From: Balneolaceae bacterium
GTDB lineage: Bacteria > Bacteroidota > Rhodothermia > Balneolales > Balneolaceae
Reading direction: 5' to 3'
Assembly (NCBI GenBank): GCA_007693395.1
Contig: REDS01000119.1
Location: forward strand, 40,104 to 104,103
DNA: 64,000 nt
Shown here: one piece after another, positions 57,232-64,000 of the stretch
Position numbering within the stretch: position 1 is the first letter of the stretch
Layout: each line of letters opens with the position of its first letter
Notes under the pieces: model-generated
What the model saw: only the letters and a program-made list of their open reading frames with translations
Told to the model about the DNA's origin: nothing
Database searches by the model: none
Made by a program: the position numbers and the translations under genes

Positions 57232-57300
57232 TTTTTTTTCGTTTTTAAGTGTAAGGTTTCTGTGATTTTTTGCTCATACTAATAAAAAAGGTATTTACGT

Positions 57301-57618
57301 ATGAAAAAATCACTGATGCTTTCAAACCTTCGCGTAGAAATTCGCAGAAAGCAATCGTCATTCGCGAATGAACGAATGATGCTAAACTGGGTAAAAAGAT
57401 TCTTCGATGAGATGTCCATTGTTCACTCTTCTCAAATAAGAGACTGGCAAAAAGAGATGTTTTTAGCTGATCTTCGGAAAAAAGAAAATGTTTCTTATGA
57501 AGAACTACTCCAGGCAAAATCATCACTTTTCTTTTTGTTTGAAAAAGTGTTGAAGCAATCGGAGTTTTCAAAAATTACTACCGATAGCGAACCCGGATCT
57601 TTCAGGATTACTGCTTGA
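57301..57618 (+). CDS. Stand-alone integrase N-terminal SAM-like (core-binding) domain protein, integron-integrase-like
   Basis: 105 aa; LSNLRVEIRRKQSSFANERMMLNWVKRFF...FLADLRKKENVSYEELLQAKSSLFFLFEKVL resembles the IntI N-terminal domain; no catalytic R-H-R-Y domain follows. Confidence 0.62.
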   Translation: MKKSLMLSNLRVEIRRKQSSFANERMMLNWVKRFFDEMSIVHSSQIRDWQKEMFLADLRKKENVSYEELLQAKSSLFFLFEKVLKQSEFSKITTDSEPGSFRITA

Positions 57619-58269: not shown

Positions 58270-60054
58270 ATGAGTGAATATAACAAAACGCTGCCGGAAA
58301 TTATCTTTGAAGGCCTTAAAAAATATGGTGACGGCCTTTTTGCTTCTACCAAAAGAGGGGGGGAATGGCAACCTACAAATGTTGAAACCTTTATCGAGAA
58401 AACTAAAAATCTTGCAATGGGTTTATATACGTTAGGCGTTAGGCCTGGCAGCAAAGTGGCAATCCATTCTGAGAACTCTACAGAATGGTTGATGTGCGAT
58501 CTGGCCACCCTGTCAATTGGAGCTGCAAATGTTCCTATTTACACTACTCAACCCGGCGATCAGATTAAGTATATACTCGAAAATTCTGATTCTGTGGTTC
58601 ATATTGTATCAAATGATGAGATGTTTGCAGATACAAAACCACTCATTAAATGTGTGAAAAATGTAAAAGCTATTGTATCCATCCAGGGTTCATCACATAA
58701 AAAACTAAAGTCGTTTGATGAAGTTATTGAATCAGGTAAGAAACTGAGAGAAGAAAAGCCCGATCTTTTCGATGAACTAAAGAACGCTATTAAACCGGAT
58801 GATCTTGCCACACTGATTTACACTTCAGGCACTACCGGCTTACCTAAAGGAGTTATGCTTACCCATAGAAATATCGCTTCGAACGTTGTGGCATCCCTCG
58901 AAAAATTACCGTTTGATGCGAGTGAATTCCTGGGCCAAAGAGTACTCTCTTATTTGCCGTTATCGCACGTTTTTGAAAGAATGATTGAGTATATGTATAT
59001 CAGCATGGGGTGCAGAATTTATTACATCGAAGTAGTGGAAGAGATCAGGGATGATTTTGGATATGTTCGCCCGTTCTTTTTTGCTACGGTGCCCCGCTTG
59101 CTTGAAAAAATTCATACCGGTGTAAAAGTAAAAGGGCAGGAGTTATCGGGAGCTCAGAAGAATATTTACTATTGGGCAATATATCGTACAGAAAATTATG
59201 ATCCGGAAAATCCACCATCGAAACTTAATGTAAACCACCGACTGGCGAACAGGCTTGTTTACAGTAAAATACGAGAGCTTTTTGGTGGGAATCTTCGGGG
59301 AATGGTCAGCGGAGGTGCAGCACTATCGCCAGATATTTTTAAATTTATGAATGCAATTGGCTTTATTTGTGTGCAGGGGTACGGCCTGACGGAAACATCC
59401 CCGGTAATTACAGTGCAGGCACCCGGTGCCATGAGAATTGGCAGCTCAGGAAAAACTATTCGTGATGTAGAGGTGAAAATTGCCGAAGATGGTGAGATTC
59501 TTTCCAGAGGGCCGCATATCATGAAAGGTTATTATAAAGATGAGGAGCAGACTAAAGAAGTAATGACCGATGATGGCTGGTTCAAAACCGGCGATATCGG
59601 TAAGATTGATGATGACGGTTTTCTCTACATTACCGACAGGAAAAAGTCGATGTTTAAGCTATCCACTGGAAAATATGTAGCACCTCAGAATGTGGAAAAT
59701 CATATTTCAGGATCAGGTTTTATTGAGCAGGCTGTAGTGATCGGATATCAGCGAAAATTCTGTTCTGCACTCATTGTGCCGGCATACGACAATGTACTGA
59801 AACGCCTGAAGCGTGATGGGTATGAGCCATCAAAACCTTTTGCGAAAGATGAAAAGATACGGGAACTCATTCAGGGTGAAGTTGATAAAGCCAATAAAAA
59901 TGTATCTCCATGGGAAACAGTAAAGAAATTCGTACTGCTCGAAGAGCCATTAACAATCGACAGTGGCGAACTTACACCAACCATGAAAGTGAAGCGACCT
60001 GTTGTTCTCGAGAAATACAAGGAGGAGATTGAATCGATGTATGGGGATGAGTAG
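58270..60054 (+). CDS. Long-chain fatty acid-CoA ligase (AMP-forming)
   Basis: 594 aa; LIYTSGTTGLPKGVMLTHRN, GYGLTETSPVI, DGWFKTGDIGKIDDDGFLYITDRKK. Confidence 0.94.
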   Translation: MSEYNKTLPEIIFEGLKKYGDGLFASTKRGGEWQPTNVETFIEKTKNLAMGLYTLGVRPGSKVAIHSENSTEWLMCDLATLSIGAANVPIYTTQPGDQIKYILENSDSVVHIVSNDEMFADTKPLIKCVKNVKAIVSIQGSSHKKLKSFDEVIESGKKLREEKPDLFDELKNAIKPDDLATLIYTSGTTGLPKGVMLTHRNIASNVVASLEKLPFDASEFLGQRVLSYLPLSHVFERMIEYMYISMGCRIYYIEVVEEIRDDFGYVRPFFFATVPRLLEKIHTGVKVKGQELSGAQKNIYYWAIYRTENYDPENPPSKLNVNHRLANRLVYSKIRELFGGNLRGMVSGGAALSPDIFKFMNAIGFICVQGYGLTETSPVITVQAPGAMRIGSSGKTIRDVEVKIAEDGEILSRGPHIMKGYYKDEEQTKEVMTDDGWFKTGDIGKIDDDGFLYITDRKKSMFKLSTGKYVAPQNVENHISGSGFIEQAVVIGYQRKFCSALIVPAYDNVLKRLKRDGYEPSKPFAKDEKIRELIQGEVDKANKNVSPWETVKKFVLLEEPLTIDSGELTPTMKVKRPVVLEKYKEEIESMYGDE

Positions 60055-60076
60055 TCGTGAGTCTTGAGTCCTGAGT
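60053..60076. repeat. Heptanucleotide array, left arm of inverted pair 1
   Basis: agtc-gtgagtc-ttgagtc-ctgagt; overlaps the TAG stop (60052-60054) of the ligase gene. Confidence 0.85.
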
Positions 60077-60157
60077 ATTTAGAAAGGCCTGGGACATCGG
60101 ATAAGATTCACGCATATAATAAGAATAAGCTCCGGAATTAAATTCTAAGAAAATCTC

Positions 60158-62539
60158 ATGACACAAGACTCACGACTCAAGACTAAAAAAATCCAAAACG
60201 TCATCATCCTCGGCTCAGGTGTCATGGGCAGCCAGATTGCCGCGCACTGTGTGAATGCCGGATTGAAGGTGAAGCTGCTGGACCTGAAATCGGACGATCC
60301 CAAACGGCCGAACAAGACGGCGGAAGAGAATATTCAGAAACTGACCAAAATGAACCCGGCGCCTCTGGGCGACCCGGAGTGGACGGAGAGGATTTCGCCG
60401 GGTAATTTTGAGGATCACCTGGAGTGGGTGAAAGATGCAGACTGGGTCTGCGAGGTGATTGTGGAGCGGATGGATATCAAAAAGGAGATGATGGCGAAAC
60501 TGGAGAAGGTGCGCAGGCCGGGCACCATTGTGAGCTCCAACACCTCCGGGCTGCCGATTTCCGATATCAGCGAAGATGTCTCTGATGAGTTCAAAGCTCA
60601 TTTCCTCGGCACGCACTTCTTCAATCCGCCGCGCTATATGAAGCTGCTGGAGATCATACCGACCGAAACCACGGATGATGCGGTGACGCAGTACATGACC
60701 GGCTTCTGCGAAAAAATCCTCGGTAAAGGCGTGGTGATCTGCAAGGATACACCCAACTTCATCGCCAACCGGATCGGCGTCTTTTCGATGGCGTCGATGA
60801 TGCCGTGGTTTTTTGACGGGAAGTTCCGCGCAGAGGAGATCGACTTTCTGACCGGCACCCTCACCGGCTACTCCAAGGCGGCAACGTTCCGAACCGCTGA
60901 TATGGCCGGGCTTGATGTGCTGAACCACGTGGCCGAAAACCTCTATCCCGCGGTGCCGGATGATGAGCGCAGGGAAGCGTTCAAACTTCCTGAGGGATTT
61001 AAGGAAATGGTAGAGAAGGGTGCCCATGGAAATAAGAAAGGGCACGGGTTTTATAAAAAAGTGAAGGGCAACAAGGGAAATGAATACCACGTGGTGGATC
61101 CCGAAACGCTGGAGTATGAAAAGCAGCAGGATGTTTCGTTTGATTCGGCCGATAAAGCCAAAAAGGAGTACAAAACCTCAGGTGAGCGGCTGAAATTTAT
61201 GGTGAACCGGGATGACAAGGCCGGGAAATTTTTGTGGGAGATACACTGCGATCTGCTGCTCTACTCCGCCAACCGCATTCCGGAGATCACAGATTCGGTT
61301 GAGTCGATCGACCGCGCGATGCAGTGGGGCTTCAACTGGGAGCTCGGGCCGTTTCAACGGTGGGACGCTATCGGGGTAGAGGAGTCGGTAAAACGAATGG
61401 AAGAGGAGGAACGAACGGTTCCCGAATCTGTGAAGAAAATGCTTGACAGCGGTCGCAAATCCTTTTACAAGGATGACGGCACCGTGTACAATCTGGCCAC
61501 CGGCAAGGCGGAAGATCTTACCTCGCCGGCAAAAGGGGCGATTACCGTATCCTCGCTCAAACGAAATGGCAAGGAGGTGTGGGGCAACAAGAGTGCCGGC
61601 CTGTACGATATGGGCGATGGTGTGGCATTGTTCGAGTTCCGCACCAAAAACCAGACGCTCGGTTTTGAGCTGGTGAAGTCGGTGGATGAAGCCGCTGAAA
61701 TTGTGAAGGAGCAGTTCGACGCGATGGTGATCGGCCACGACCATGAGAATTTCAGCTATGGCGCCAACCTGGGCGAGGCCGGGGAAGCCCTGAAAAGCGG
61801 TGATTTTGGAAAGATCAACGATGCTGTGAACAATTTCCAGCGTGTGGCTGTCGGACTGCGATACCGGCCGTTTCCGGTGATCGGTGCTGTATCGGGCCGC
61901 TGCTTCGGCGGCGGGGTGGAGTTTATGATGCACTGCGACAAGGTGGTGGCGCATCACGAGCTCTACTGTGGACTGGTGGAGCTGGGTGTTGGGCTTATTC
62001 CCGCCGGGGGTGGCACAAAAGAGCTGCTGCTCCGCGCCATGGAGAAGGTGAAGGAGGAAGAGGATGCCGATCCGCTGCCCTACCTGAAGGACGCTTTTAA
62101 AACCATCGGCATGGCAAAAGTCTCCGATGGCGCACCGAAGGCGAAAAAGCTGGGCTACTTACGCGATACCGACATGATTGTGATGCACCGCGACCTGCTC
62201 CTTGCCACAGCCAAACAGCAGGCCAGGGCGATGGCCGACGCGGGCTATCGTCCACCGGCAGAGCCGAAGATCAAACTGACGGGCCAGACCGGCAAAAGCG
62301 TACTCGATGTCACCGTCTACATCATGACTGAAGCGAAATGGGCCTCACCGTACGACAAGGTCCTCGCCGGAAAAGTGGCCGAAATCATGACCGGCGGTGA
62401 TCTCAGCGAAGCCCAGGAAGTGCCCGAATCGTACGTGCTGAAACTGGAGCGCGAAGCGATCCTGGAGTGCTTCAAGGATGAGCGAACGCATAAGAGGATG
62501 GAGCATATGTTGAAGACGGGGAAACCTCTTAGAAATTAG
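60158..62539 (+). CDS. 3-hydroxyacyl-CoA dehydrogenase/enoyl-CoA hydratase (FadN/FadJ-like)
   Basis: 793 aa; VIILGSGVMGSQIAAHCVNAGLKVKLLD, FKAHFLGTHFFNPPRYMKLLEIIP, hydratase GRCFGGGVEFMMHCDKVVA, C-terminus MLKTGKPLRN. Confidence 0.94.
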   Translation: MTQDSRLKTKKIQNVIILGSGVMGSQIAAHCVNAGLKVKLLDLKSDDPKRPNKTAEENIQKLTKMNPAPLGDPEWTERISPGNFEDHLEWVKDADWVCEVIVERMDIKKEMMAKLEKVRRPGTIVSSNTSGLPISDISEDVSDEFKAHFLGTHFFNPPRYMKLLEIIPTETTDDAVTQYMTGFCEKILGKGVVICKDTPNFIANRIGVFSMASMMPWFFDGKFRAEEIDFLTGTLTGYSKAATFRTADMAGLDVLNHVAENLYPAVPDDERREAFKLPEGFKEMVEKGAHGNKKGHGFYKKVKGNKGNEYHVVDPETLEYEKQQDVSFDSADKAKKEYKTSGERLKFMVNRDDKAGKFLWEIHCDLLLYSANRIPEITDSVESIDRAMQWGFNWELGPFQRWDAIGVEESVKRMEEEERTVPESVKKMLDSGRKSFYKDDGTVYNLATGKAEDLTSPAKGAITVSSLKRNGKEVWGNKSAGLYDMGDGVALFEFRTKNQTLGFELVKSVDEAAEIVKEQFDAMVIGHDHENFSYGANLGEAGEALKSGDFGKINDAVNNFQRVAVGLRYRPFPVIGAVSGRCFGGGVEFMMHCDKVVAHHELYCGLVELGVGLIPAGGGTKELLLRAMEKVKEEEDADPLPYLKDAFKTIGMAKVSDGAPKAKKLGYLRDTDMIVMHRDLLLATAKQQARAMADAGYRPPAEPKIKLTGQTGKSVLDVTVYIMTEAKWASPYDKVLAGKVAEIMTGGDLSEAQEVPESYVLKLEREAILECFKDERTHKRMEHMLKTGKPLRN
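60159..60187. repeat. Heptanucleotide array, right arm of inverted pair 1
   Basis: t-gacacaa-gactcac-gactcaa-gactaaa; 60164-60177 is the exact reverse complement of 60053-60066 (14 bp); overlaps the ATG of the FadN-like gene. Confidence 0.85.
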
Positions 62540-62561
62540 TCTTGAGTCGTGAGTCTTGAGA
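62538..62561. repeat. Heptanucleotide array, left arm of inverted pair 2
   Basis: agtc-ttgagtc-gtgagtc-ttgaga; overlaps the TAG stop (62537-62539) of the FadN-like gene. Confidence 0.87.
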
Positions 62562-62724
62562 TTTTGAACTCATTTTTAGATTTATATCAATATCCACAAA
62601 TACAAAATGGACTTACTTTCACACTTCAATCTACTCAACATCTTCAAGACTAATAAAAAAGTGTAAGGAAATTTTGATACCGGGTTCATATAGTTAAGTC
62701 AATATGAACTTAATCTGGTGAATT

Positions 62725-63078
62725 ATGGATAATTTTAGAAATTTGATTGTATGGAAACGTGCTGTTGAATTGGCAACAAGTGTTTATCGTAAAACCGTAA
62801 ACTTTCCCAAATATGAACTTTATGGATTAACCTCACAAATAAGGAGATCAGCAGTTTCAATCAGCTCAAATATTGCTGAAGGCGCGGGTCGAAGGTCAAA
62901 GAAAGAGTTCGCCAACTTCCTTGGAATCTCTTATGGATCTGCCTGTGAATTGGAAACACAGTTACTGATCGCAAGAAATCTGGAATACTTAGCTCAAACT
63001 GATTTTGATTCTCTTTTCCAAGAATTAAACGAAATTCAAAAAATGCTCTACGCCCTGGAAAAGAAACAACGCAACTAA
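62725..63078 (+). CDS. Four-helix bundle protein (23S rRNA intervening-sequence/S23 family)
   Basis: 117 aa; MDNFRNLIVWKRAVELATSVYRKTVNFPKYELYGLTSQIRRSAVSISSNIAEGAGRRSKKEFANFLGISYGSACELETQLLIARNL. Confidence 0.95.
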   Translation: MDNFRNLIVWKRAVELATSVYRKTVNFPKYELYGLTSQIRRSAVSISSNIAEGAGRRSKKEFANFLGISYGSACELETQLLIARNLEYLAQTDFDSLFQELNEIQKMLYALEKKQRN

Positions 63079-63093
63079 ATCCAATTCCCTCTC

Positions 63094-64000
63094 ATGACTC
63101 AAGACTCAAGACTCACGACTAAACAAAACGAAATCTTCATCGTAGCCGCAAAACGAACCGCCTGCGGAAAGGCCAACAAAGGCTCCCTACGTTTCACTCG
63201 TCCCGATTCGCTGATGGGTGAAATCATCAAAGACCTTTTAAAGCACGCTCCTGCTGTTAAACCCGAAATGGTGGATGACGTCATCGTCGGCTGTGCCTTT
63301 CCCGAAGGGTCTCAGGGGATGAATGTTGCGCGGCAGGCGGTATTTCTGGGTGGGTTGCCCGATTCGGTTCCCGGAATGACGATCAACCGGTTCTGTTCGT
63401 CGGGTTTGCAGACGATCGCCATGGCTGCGGAACGGATAATGGCGAGTGGTGCGGAGATCATGATTGCCGGTGGGGTTGAGAGTATGAGTCAGGTGCCGAT
63501 GGGAGGGGTGTCATTTCAGCCGAATCCCGATCTGGCTGATCAGCGTCCGGAGGTCTATATCAACATGGGGCTGACGGCAGAGAATGTGGCGGACAAATAT
63601 GGTGTGAGCCGGGAAGATCAGGATCAGTTTGCATTCAATAGCCATCAAAAGGCGATTAAAGCGTGGGAAGAGGGGTACTTTGATGAGCAGATCACACCGG
63701 TTGAGGTGGTTCACAAGTATGTAACCGCTGACGGCGAAGTGGAAGAGAATAAATTTTCCTTTGTAAAGGATGAAGGTCCTCGCAAGGATACCAATATGGA
63801 AGCACTCGGCGGACTGCGCGCCGTGTTCAAAACAGGCGGTACCGTCACAGCCGGAAACTCCTCACAAATGAATGATGCTGCTGCAGGCGTACTGGTGATG
63901 AGCCGCAAAAAAGCGGATGAGTTGGGCCTGAAGCCGATCGCTCGGTATCACGGATTTGCCGTGGCGGGTGTGGCACCGGAGATTATGGGAATCGGCCCGG
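63094..64000 (+). CDS. Acetyl-CoA C-acyltransferase (thiolase), partial (runs off the window end)
   Basis: MTQDSRLTTKQNEIFIVAAKRTACGKANKGSLR..., NRFCSSGLQTIAMAAERI, IAGGVESMSQVPMG, VTAGNSSQMNDAAAG. Confidence 0.93.
   Translation, partial: MTQDSRLTTKQNEIFIVAAKRTACGKANKGSLRFTRPDSLMGEIIKDLLKHAPAVKPEMVDDVIVGCAFPEGSQGMNVARQAVFLGGLPDSVPGMTINRFCSSGLQTIAMAAERIMASGAEIMIAGGVESMSQVPMGGVSFQPNPDLADQRPEVYINMGLTAENVADKYGVSREDQDQFAFNSHQKAIKAWEEGYFDEQITPVEVVHKYVTADGEVEENKFSFVKDEGPRKDTNMEALGGLRAVFKTGGTVTAGNSSQMNDAAAGVLVMSRKKADELGLKPIARYHGFAVAGVAPEIMGIGP
63095..63123. repeat. Heptanucleotide array, right arm of inverted pair 2
   Basis: t-gactcaa-gactcaa-gactcac-gactaaa; 63105-63120 is the exact reverse complement of 62545-62560 (16 bp); overlaps the thiolase ATG. 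Confidence 0.87.

Follow-up and report, generated by a model that had tools for sequence, protein, structure and literature searches.

Why should a gene of the S23 family, long familiar from inserts inside ribosomal RNA genes, lie between two protein-coding genes, FadN and a thiolase? The question is raised by a 64,000-nt stretch of DNA (the window) from the metagenome-assembled genome of a Balneolaceae bacterium, 98% complete and designated G000 in our comparisons. Structures of S23 proteins have been solved for about twenty years with no function attached to them, and the origin of the 23S rRNA intervening sequences (IVS) has been unexplained. Our analysis suggests that the S23 gene of the window belongs to a small mobile DNA element made up of inverted heptad arms, a competence-type promoter and an S23 protein that would act on the arms, a reading that we regard as likely, if well short of certain. 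The common anatomy of S23 loci, their insertion polymorphism and their apparent co-regulation with DNA-uptake and recombination genes together provide a lead on the function of S23 and on the origin of the IVS. The window cassette is filed here under S23 intervening sequence, and the finding is much wider than first described.

The preliminary description of this locus had placed an S23-like gene between inverted heptad arrays, and both parts of that statement hold. The protein matches PF05635 with 140.9 bits (cut-off 33.8; E=2e-41) and TIGR02436 with 137 bits (cut-off 24), and is a normal member of the family; an array scan located the flanking GACTCAM heptads again, at 62535-62555 (minus strand) and 63096-63123 (plus strand). 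The perfect inverted match described between them was recovered at 16 of 16 positions (62545-62560 is the reverse complement of 63105-63120), with TAGTC at the left outer end of the cassette and GACTA at the right. As had also been described, the cassette begins in the FadN stop codon (TAG, 62537-62539) and ends just inside the thiolase gene, the ATG of which (63094-63096) lies within the right arm. Matches to the heptad 14-mer with at most two mismatches number 11, against 1.03 expected and a maximum of 4 in 100 shuffles, and when 2000 positions drawn at random from the window were searched with this geometry, no perfect inverted match exceeded 13 bp and 6 bp was the commonest length. A chance origin of the arrays and of their inverted match is excluded. 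Terminal inverted repeats, which here enclose the S23 open reading frame (ORF), are a feature both of 23S rRNA IVS and of insertion sequences (IS) and miniature inverted-repeat transposable elements (MITEs). Profile and structure comparison found no transposase domain in the cassette, of which S23 is the sole gene.

The same anatomy recurs far beyond the window. Around most of 79 related S23 genes, the upstream flank carries tandem heptads and the downstream flank their reverse complement, and the heptad is specific to the locus. The period-7 score averages 10.6 upstream and 9.3 downstream, compared with 4.3 and 3.5 in control segments, and among periods 4 to 12 only 7 is enriched. We extended the comparison to 126 S23 loci from Bacteroidota, Cyanobacteria and Gemmatimonadota, including one 23S rRNA insert in Azospirillum, with the flanks of 600 ORFs and 250 intergenic segments as controls. 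Period 7 and inverted matching separate the S23 loci from the 600 control ORFs at p values of 1e-39 to 1e-47, which are overstated because related sequences are not independent, an effect that leaves the effect size untouched; at periods 6 and 8 the signal is weak or absent. The score is reached in at least one flank at 81% of S23 loci but only 13% of the intergenic controls. Arms match their own partner (14.2) better than the arms of other loci (8.7; z 19, 20,000 permutations, maximum 10.4), and arms are alike where the S23 proteins are more than 70% identical, falling to the random level of likeness below 45% identity. These comparisons show that inverted, degenerate heptad arrays, private to each locus and matched between arms, flank S23 genes in several phyla. 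The heptad-S23 association proposed earlier therefore stands for period-7, inverted, locus-specific arrays and fails for GACTCAM itself. As a marker of four-helix-bundle genes, GACTCAM was rejected, since the six other S23 matches of the G000 genome lack it and carry other heptads, and most GACTCAM arrays have no S23 gene. In the literature searched, mostly papers open without subscription, no paper connects S23 with heptad arms.

Most of 16 plasmid S23 genes from Cyanobacteria, Gemmatirosa and Azospirillum also have inverted heptad arms, among them TAGGGAG, AGGGAAC, GTGACAG, AAAAGGG and GTAGGGT. The plasmid cassettes lie within operons (cas6/S23/cas4 and cas10/S23/cmr3) and, in antisense, between ribonucleotide reductase genes, and the type is also found in transfer genes and rRNA genes. 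The cassettes inside CRISPR operons of cyanobacterial plasmids (L184, L178, L185) may explain why the family is listed among CRISPR-linked proteins (PMC10910872).

Plasmids of Nostocales reveal the cassette as an insertion, with full and empty versions of sites A, B, C1, C2 and D in flanks that are about 90-98% identical. The empty site A reads AAAAAGTAATTAACA (L193, L194) and the full one AAAAAGTAAT-S23 cassette-GTAATTAACA (L190, L203), while L201 holds a decayed copy. The empty site C1 reads GGTTCTAGGTTATG (L192) and the full one GGTTCTA-cassette-TTCTAGTTATG (L199). L192 carries a different S23 cassette at the junction next to C1, which is empty in L199 and L200, so that cassettes with different heptads entered neighbouring junctions independently. 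Site B holds an arms-only copy in L204 and S23 in L182 and L202, and D is an additional full/empty site. Direct repeats of 4-5 bp border the ends at two well-defined sites (GTAAT; TTCTA). These data show that S23 cassettes are discrete insertions between adjacent genes.

Within the genus, the FadN-thiolase junction is equally variable. GACTCA cassettes occupy it in G000, G012, G013, G014 and G003; in G002 a different S23, 60% identical and with other heptads, stands beside a relic GACTCA array. In G007 (L123) the place is taken by a nuclease-like ORF of DUF559 type between CCCCTCCTT-type repeats, another sort of solo gene that has inverted repeats of its own at this site, and in G025 (L120) a DUF559-related ORF lies beside a relic GACTCA array. 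Other genus members have an empty junction (119, 117, 44, 10 or fewer bp). The search for empty sites that had been suggested for this junction thus found some close relatives empty and others otherwise occupied. Synonymous divergence (dS) of S23 among G000, G012, G013 and G014 is 0.19-0.69, compared with 0.96-1.42 for FadN, in six of six pairs (NG86; values above 1 are near saturation); being about half that of FadN or less, it points to transfer of S23 after the hosts diverged. The ratio dN/dS of 0.02-0.05 in the same pairs reflects strong purifying selection and suggests that the gene has been kept functional. Thiolase dS between G000 and G014 is also low (0.20), so local recombination of longer tracts evidently happens as well, and array copy number varies by whole heptads among close relatives. 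Pure vertical inheritance is ruled out by the polymorphism of the junction and by an S23 younger than FadN. Of 41 fad junctions, 31 have TAG as the stop codon upstream, which fits cassettes whose left end provides the stop. That the unit is a mobile cassette with the arrays as its terminal repeats, as first proposed, is supported by the full and empty sites, by the polymorphism in the genus and by the generality of inverted arms. The pattern that would have counted against that proposal, a cassette passed down vertically at this junction in every relative and heptad arrays elsewhere unrelated to such genes, is not what the genomes display. At one junction without S23 (L146), about ten tandem TGTCGGA heptads follow straight after the FadN stop.

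Copies consisting of arms alone accompany the cassettes. A second inverted pair of GACTCAM arrays, with no gene between them, lies at the FadD-FadN junction of the window and ends just inside FadN, and further inverted pairs occur elsewhere in the G000 genome. The FadD-FadN pair had escaped the preliminary description, as had the inner array and the promoter-like motif of the cassette (Table 1). The inner array is intact in G012, G013 and G014; there S23 is preceded by an arms-only unit made of the left arm, about 95 bp and the inner array. GACTCAN dimers number 34-118 (median 48) in the five genomes with a matching S23, which in one of the five is a fragment at a contig end, against a median of 4 for the 23 remaining genomes (p = 4e-4). 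Arms-only copies thus occupy other junctions and are more numerous where a matching S23 is present. No common core was found among the arms-only elements; their cores differ.

Between arm and gene, TGTAAGG-N14-GGTTCATAC is present at 25 of 32 S23 loci of the genus and at none of 28 control ORFs. G000 has 20 sites with at most two mismatches, compared with 2 for a reversed-pattern control. They precede recA, radC, ssb, comEC, a comF-like gene, yifB/comM and rraB, as well as an integron integrase (418 bits), a weak match to RAYT (the transposase of repetitive extragenic palindromes, REP) and four S23 genes, that of the window and three others. In G011 and G023 the motif is again found before recA, radC, comM, comEC, a comF-like gene and a gene for a comEA-type helix-hairpin-helix (HHH) protein, and also before clear RAYT, IS200-type, GxxExxY and DUF559 genes and several S23 genes (motif loci of the three genomes, L215-L265). 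It is probably the promoter of a competence and recombination regulon that also drives solo, repeat-associated small genes. The motif is absent from most other Bacteroidota and from 16 of 16 plasmid S23 loci. SOS control was considered and rejected, as the motif differs from the LexA site of Balneolaeota, TTACACATATTTTWTACATA (PMC7739468), and from those of Bacteroidetes, GGA-N5-TCC and CTAA-N5-TTAG (PMC8565304).

How might S23 act? The AlphaFold2 model of the window protein (pLDDT 97) is a four-helix bundle with a TM score of 0.95 to 2GSC and 0.8 to the Avd structures 4DWL and 8UB7. Its Avd profile score, 22.9, lies under the cut-off of 80, and a profile search found no Y1 domain in it. Five polar residues are invariant in S23 (Q38, S45, N49, E52 and E75), which indicates a conserved activity. 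We propose that the arms would fold into a hairpin recognised by S23 as a ring-forming four-helix-bundle protein. The likeliest setting is single-stranded DNA in cells that undergo natural transformation or repair, times at which the shared promoter would be active. S23 would thereby favour new insertions of the cassette that encodes it and, acting in trans, of satellites made of arms alone; host recombination enzymes would supply the chemistry. In transcripts, pairing of the arms would make an insert tolerable, in the manner of the 23S rRNA IVS cut out by RNase III. Kinship of fold with Avd, a partner of nucleic-acid-copying enzymes, supports this mechanism, as do the invariant polar residues and the predicted closing of the ORF by the arms in the transcript. 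Insertion of the cassettes is evident from the full and empty sites, and the action of S23 on the arms is what we infer from the features above.

Several observations weigh against this account. About one fifth of S23 loci have no clear heptads in either flank, and at L178 long AAAAGCT/AAAAGCC arrays on both sides of S23 (L178:1350-2000) are direct, not inverted. Clear end repeats are found at two sites only and none is defined for the window cassette; at site B the target lacks about 40 bp, and site C2 is imprecise. G017, G002 and G021 are rich in GACTCA arrays with no intact matching S23 in the assembly (G002 keeps the relic array, and the G017 contig stops just after FadN). No nuclease or recombinase motif was recognised in S23. 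Finally, the competence interpretation draws on the names of the genes that follow the motif, in this genus only.

Inserts in rRNA genes have the anatomy too. The S23 gene of Azospirillum (L186) lies inside a large-subunit rRNA gene (RF02541, 2549 bits) and has inverted heptad arms, so the classical intervening sequence shares the build. In Coxiella the IVS has a 28-bp terminal stem and tandem GACAGAT heptads before its ORF, and is excised by RNase III (PMC4990558). The IVS of Coxiella and Leptospira, in which the S23 ORF is looped out by a terminal inverted-repeat stem over about 430 bp (PMC4990558), look like the same element as the S23 cassette, down to the heptameric repeats beside the Coxiella ORF. 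Unlike them, the insert studied here sits between protein genes, with a promoter-like motif of its own, arms-only satellites and empty sites; published accounts of IVS treat the ORF as possibly unexpressed.

An alternative at the level of RNA is that the element is an intervening sequence of mRNA and rRNA, with paired arms excised by RNase III, S23 binding RNA, and spread through an RNA intermediate and reverse transcriptase, as for the Avd of diversity-generating retroelements. The rRNA inserts of Coxiella and Azospirillum would suit it, as would a predicted RNA fold in which the arms close the entire window cassette, S23 ORF included (z -3.0), the Avd-like fold, and the orientation of cassettes between codirectional genes, which is sense in 68 of 72 and antisense in 4. 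However, selection can also produce a sense bias, antisense cassettes exist (L179-L181), and the Avd similarity is under family cut-offs. Dependence on reverse transcriptase was rejected, G000 lacking RVT_1, as do 19 of 28 genus members. We consider the RNA-level explanation unlikely.

It is less probable still that the heptad arrays are ordinary slippage repeats, spreading through replication or recombination, with S23 merely caught between inverted copies. Heptamer arrays without S23 are indeed common, and long simple repeats of 7-nt units are described as frequent in bacteria in a passage of PMC4679880 that cites other work. Against this, S23 flanks exceed both kinds of control by far and at period 7 only, arms match their own partner and not other loci, S23 is under strong purifying selection, and cassettes with different heptads reached neighbouring junctions separately.

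A vertically inherited regulator of the fad operon, in which S23 and its stem, within this subfamily, are fixed between FadN and thiolase and set transcript processing or thiolase translation, seems improbable. Of the 79 nearest relatives, 41 lie at FadN/thiolase or thiolase/acyl-CoA-dehydrogenase junctions across Bacteroidota, the start codon of the thiolase lies in the right arm, and contexts are clustered on the S23 tree, with at least 22 gene-context changes compared with 37 when shuffled; the tree is poorly resolved, and the counts suggest that local inheritance and relocation both occur. The junction is nevertheless empty in close relatives or filled by another S23 (G002) or a DUF559-type gene (G007), S23 is younger than FadN, and the cassette type recurs in cas, ribonucleotide reductase, transfer and rRNA genes. 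A selfish homing nuclease or toxin-antitoxin-like retention unit, with the arms only a cut site or regulator, is very improbable. The polar residues that are invariant along one face of a helix would be in keeping with a catalytic site, and S23 has its promoter in common with DUF559, GxxExxY and RAYT genes, of which some have nuclease folds. S23 has no nuclease motif, however, the cassette holds no partner gene, and loss seems to be tolerated, judging by how often decayed copies and empty sites occur.

The mobile element that we favour has partial counterparts in known systems. REP sequences and bacterial interspersed mosaic elements (BIMEs) with a solo RAYT (Y1) transposase likewise combine a small single-copy gene with dispersed palindromic non-coding copies, and RAYT genes of this genus share the promoter motif; S23, however, lacks the HUH/tyrosine active site, and its arms are locus-private heptad arrays rather than REP hairpins. 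Integron cassettes, with attC hairpins, also pair a small gene with a folded single-strand recombination site, and an integron integrase gene carries the motif, but the S23 cassette has no attC-type core site or integrase and sits singly at operon junctions. Avd has the same four-helix-bundle fold, whereas near S23 there is neither a reverse transcriptase nor a template or variable repeat.

Short tandemly repeated repetitive (STRR) heptamer arrays are known from cyanobacteria. These and the TAACTGA heptamer repeats (PMC4679880) resemble the S23 arms as intergenic, degenerate 7-bp tandem arrays of Cyanobacteria and Bacteroidota, and some have repeat-free junctions in relatives; their accounts make no link to S23 or to inverted, locus-matched arms. 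More tentatively, and with some doubt, we suggest that a widespread and so far unrecognised class of elements uses S23 as its mobility protein. Their terminal repeats would be inverted heptad arrays that change quickly and concertedly, and their movement, as folded single-stranded DNA, would be controlled by competence. The 23S rRNA IVS would be members that landed in rRNA, and arms-only copies would explain many heptamer repeats. If true, this would account for the origin of many heptamer arrays between genes in Bacteroidota and Cyanobacteria, which have so far been described with no mechanism.

Table 1. Features of the S23 cassette and of the neighbouring arms-only copy in the window
Feature	Position	Strand	Remarks
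S23 / 23S_rRNA_IVP gene	62725..63078	+	117 aa, four-helix-bundle protein
Left heptad arm	62537..62560	-	TTGAGTC/GTGAGTC units; first three bases are the FadN TAG stop
Right heptad arm	63094..63121	+	GACTCAA/GACTCAC units; gives thiolase ATG and N-terminus MTQDSRLTTK
Degenerate inner array TCTACTCAACATCTTCAAGACTAAT	62630..62654	+	
Promoter-like motif TGTAAGG-N14-GGTTCATAT	62662..62691	+	
Arms-only copy, left arm	60052..60077	-	FadD-FadN junction; begins in FadD TAG stop
Arms-only copy, right arm	60158..60187	+	gives FadN ATG and N-terminus MTQDSRLKTK

The window holds a second copy of the motif at 57250-57279, before a 105-aa ORF (57301-57618) whose only match is to the N-terminal domain of integron-type integrases (PF13495). 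In G011 (L249), too, the motif is followed by a short gene that resembles it.

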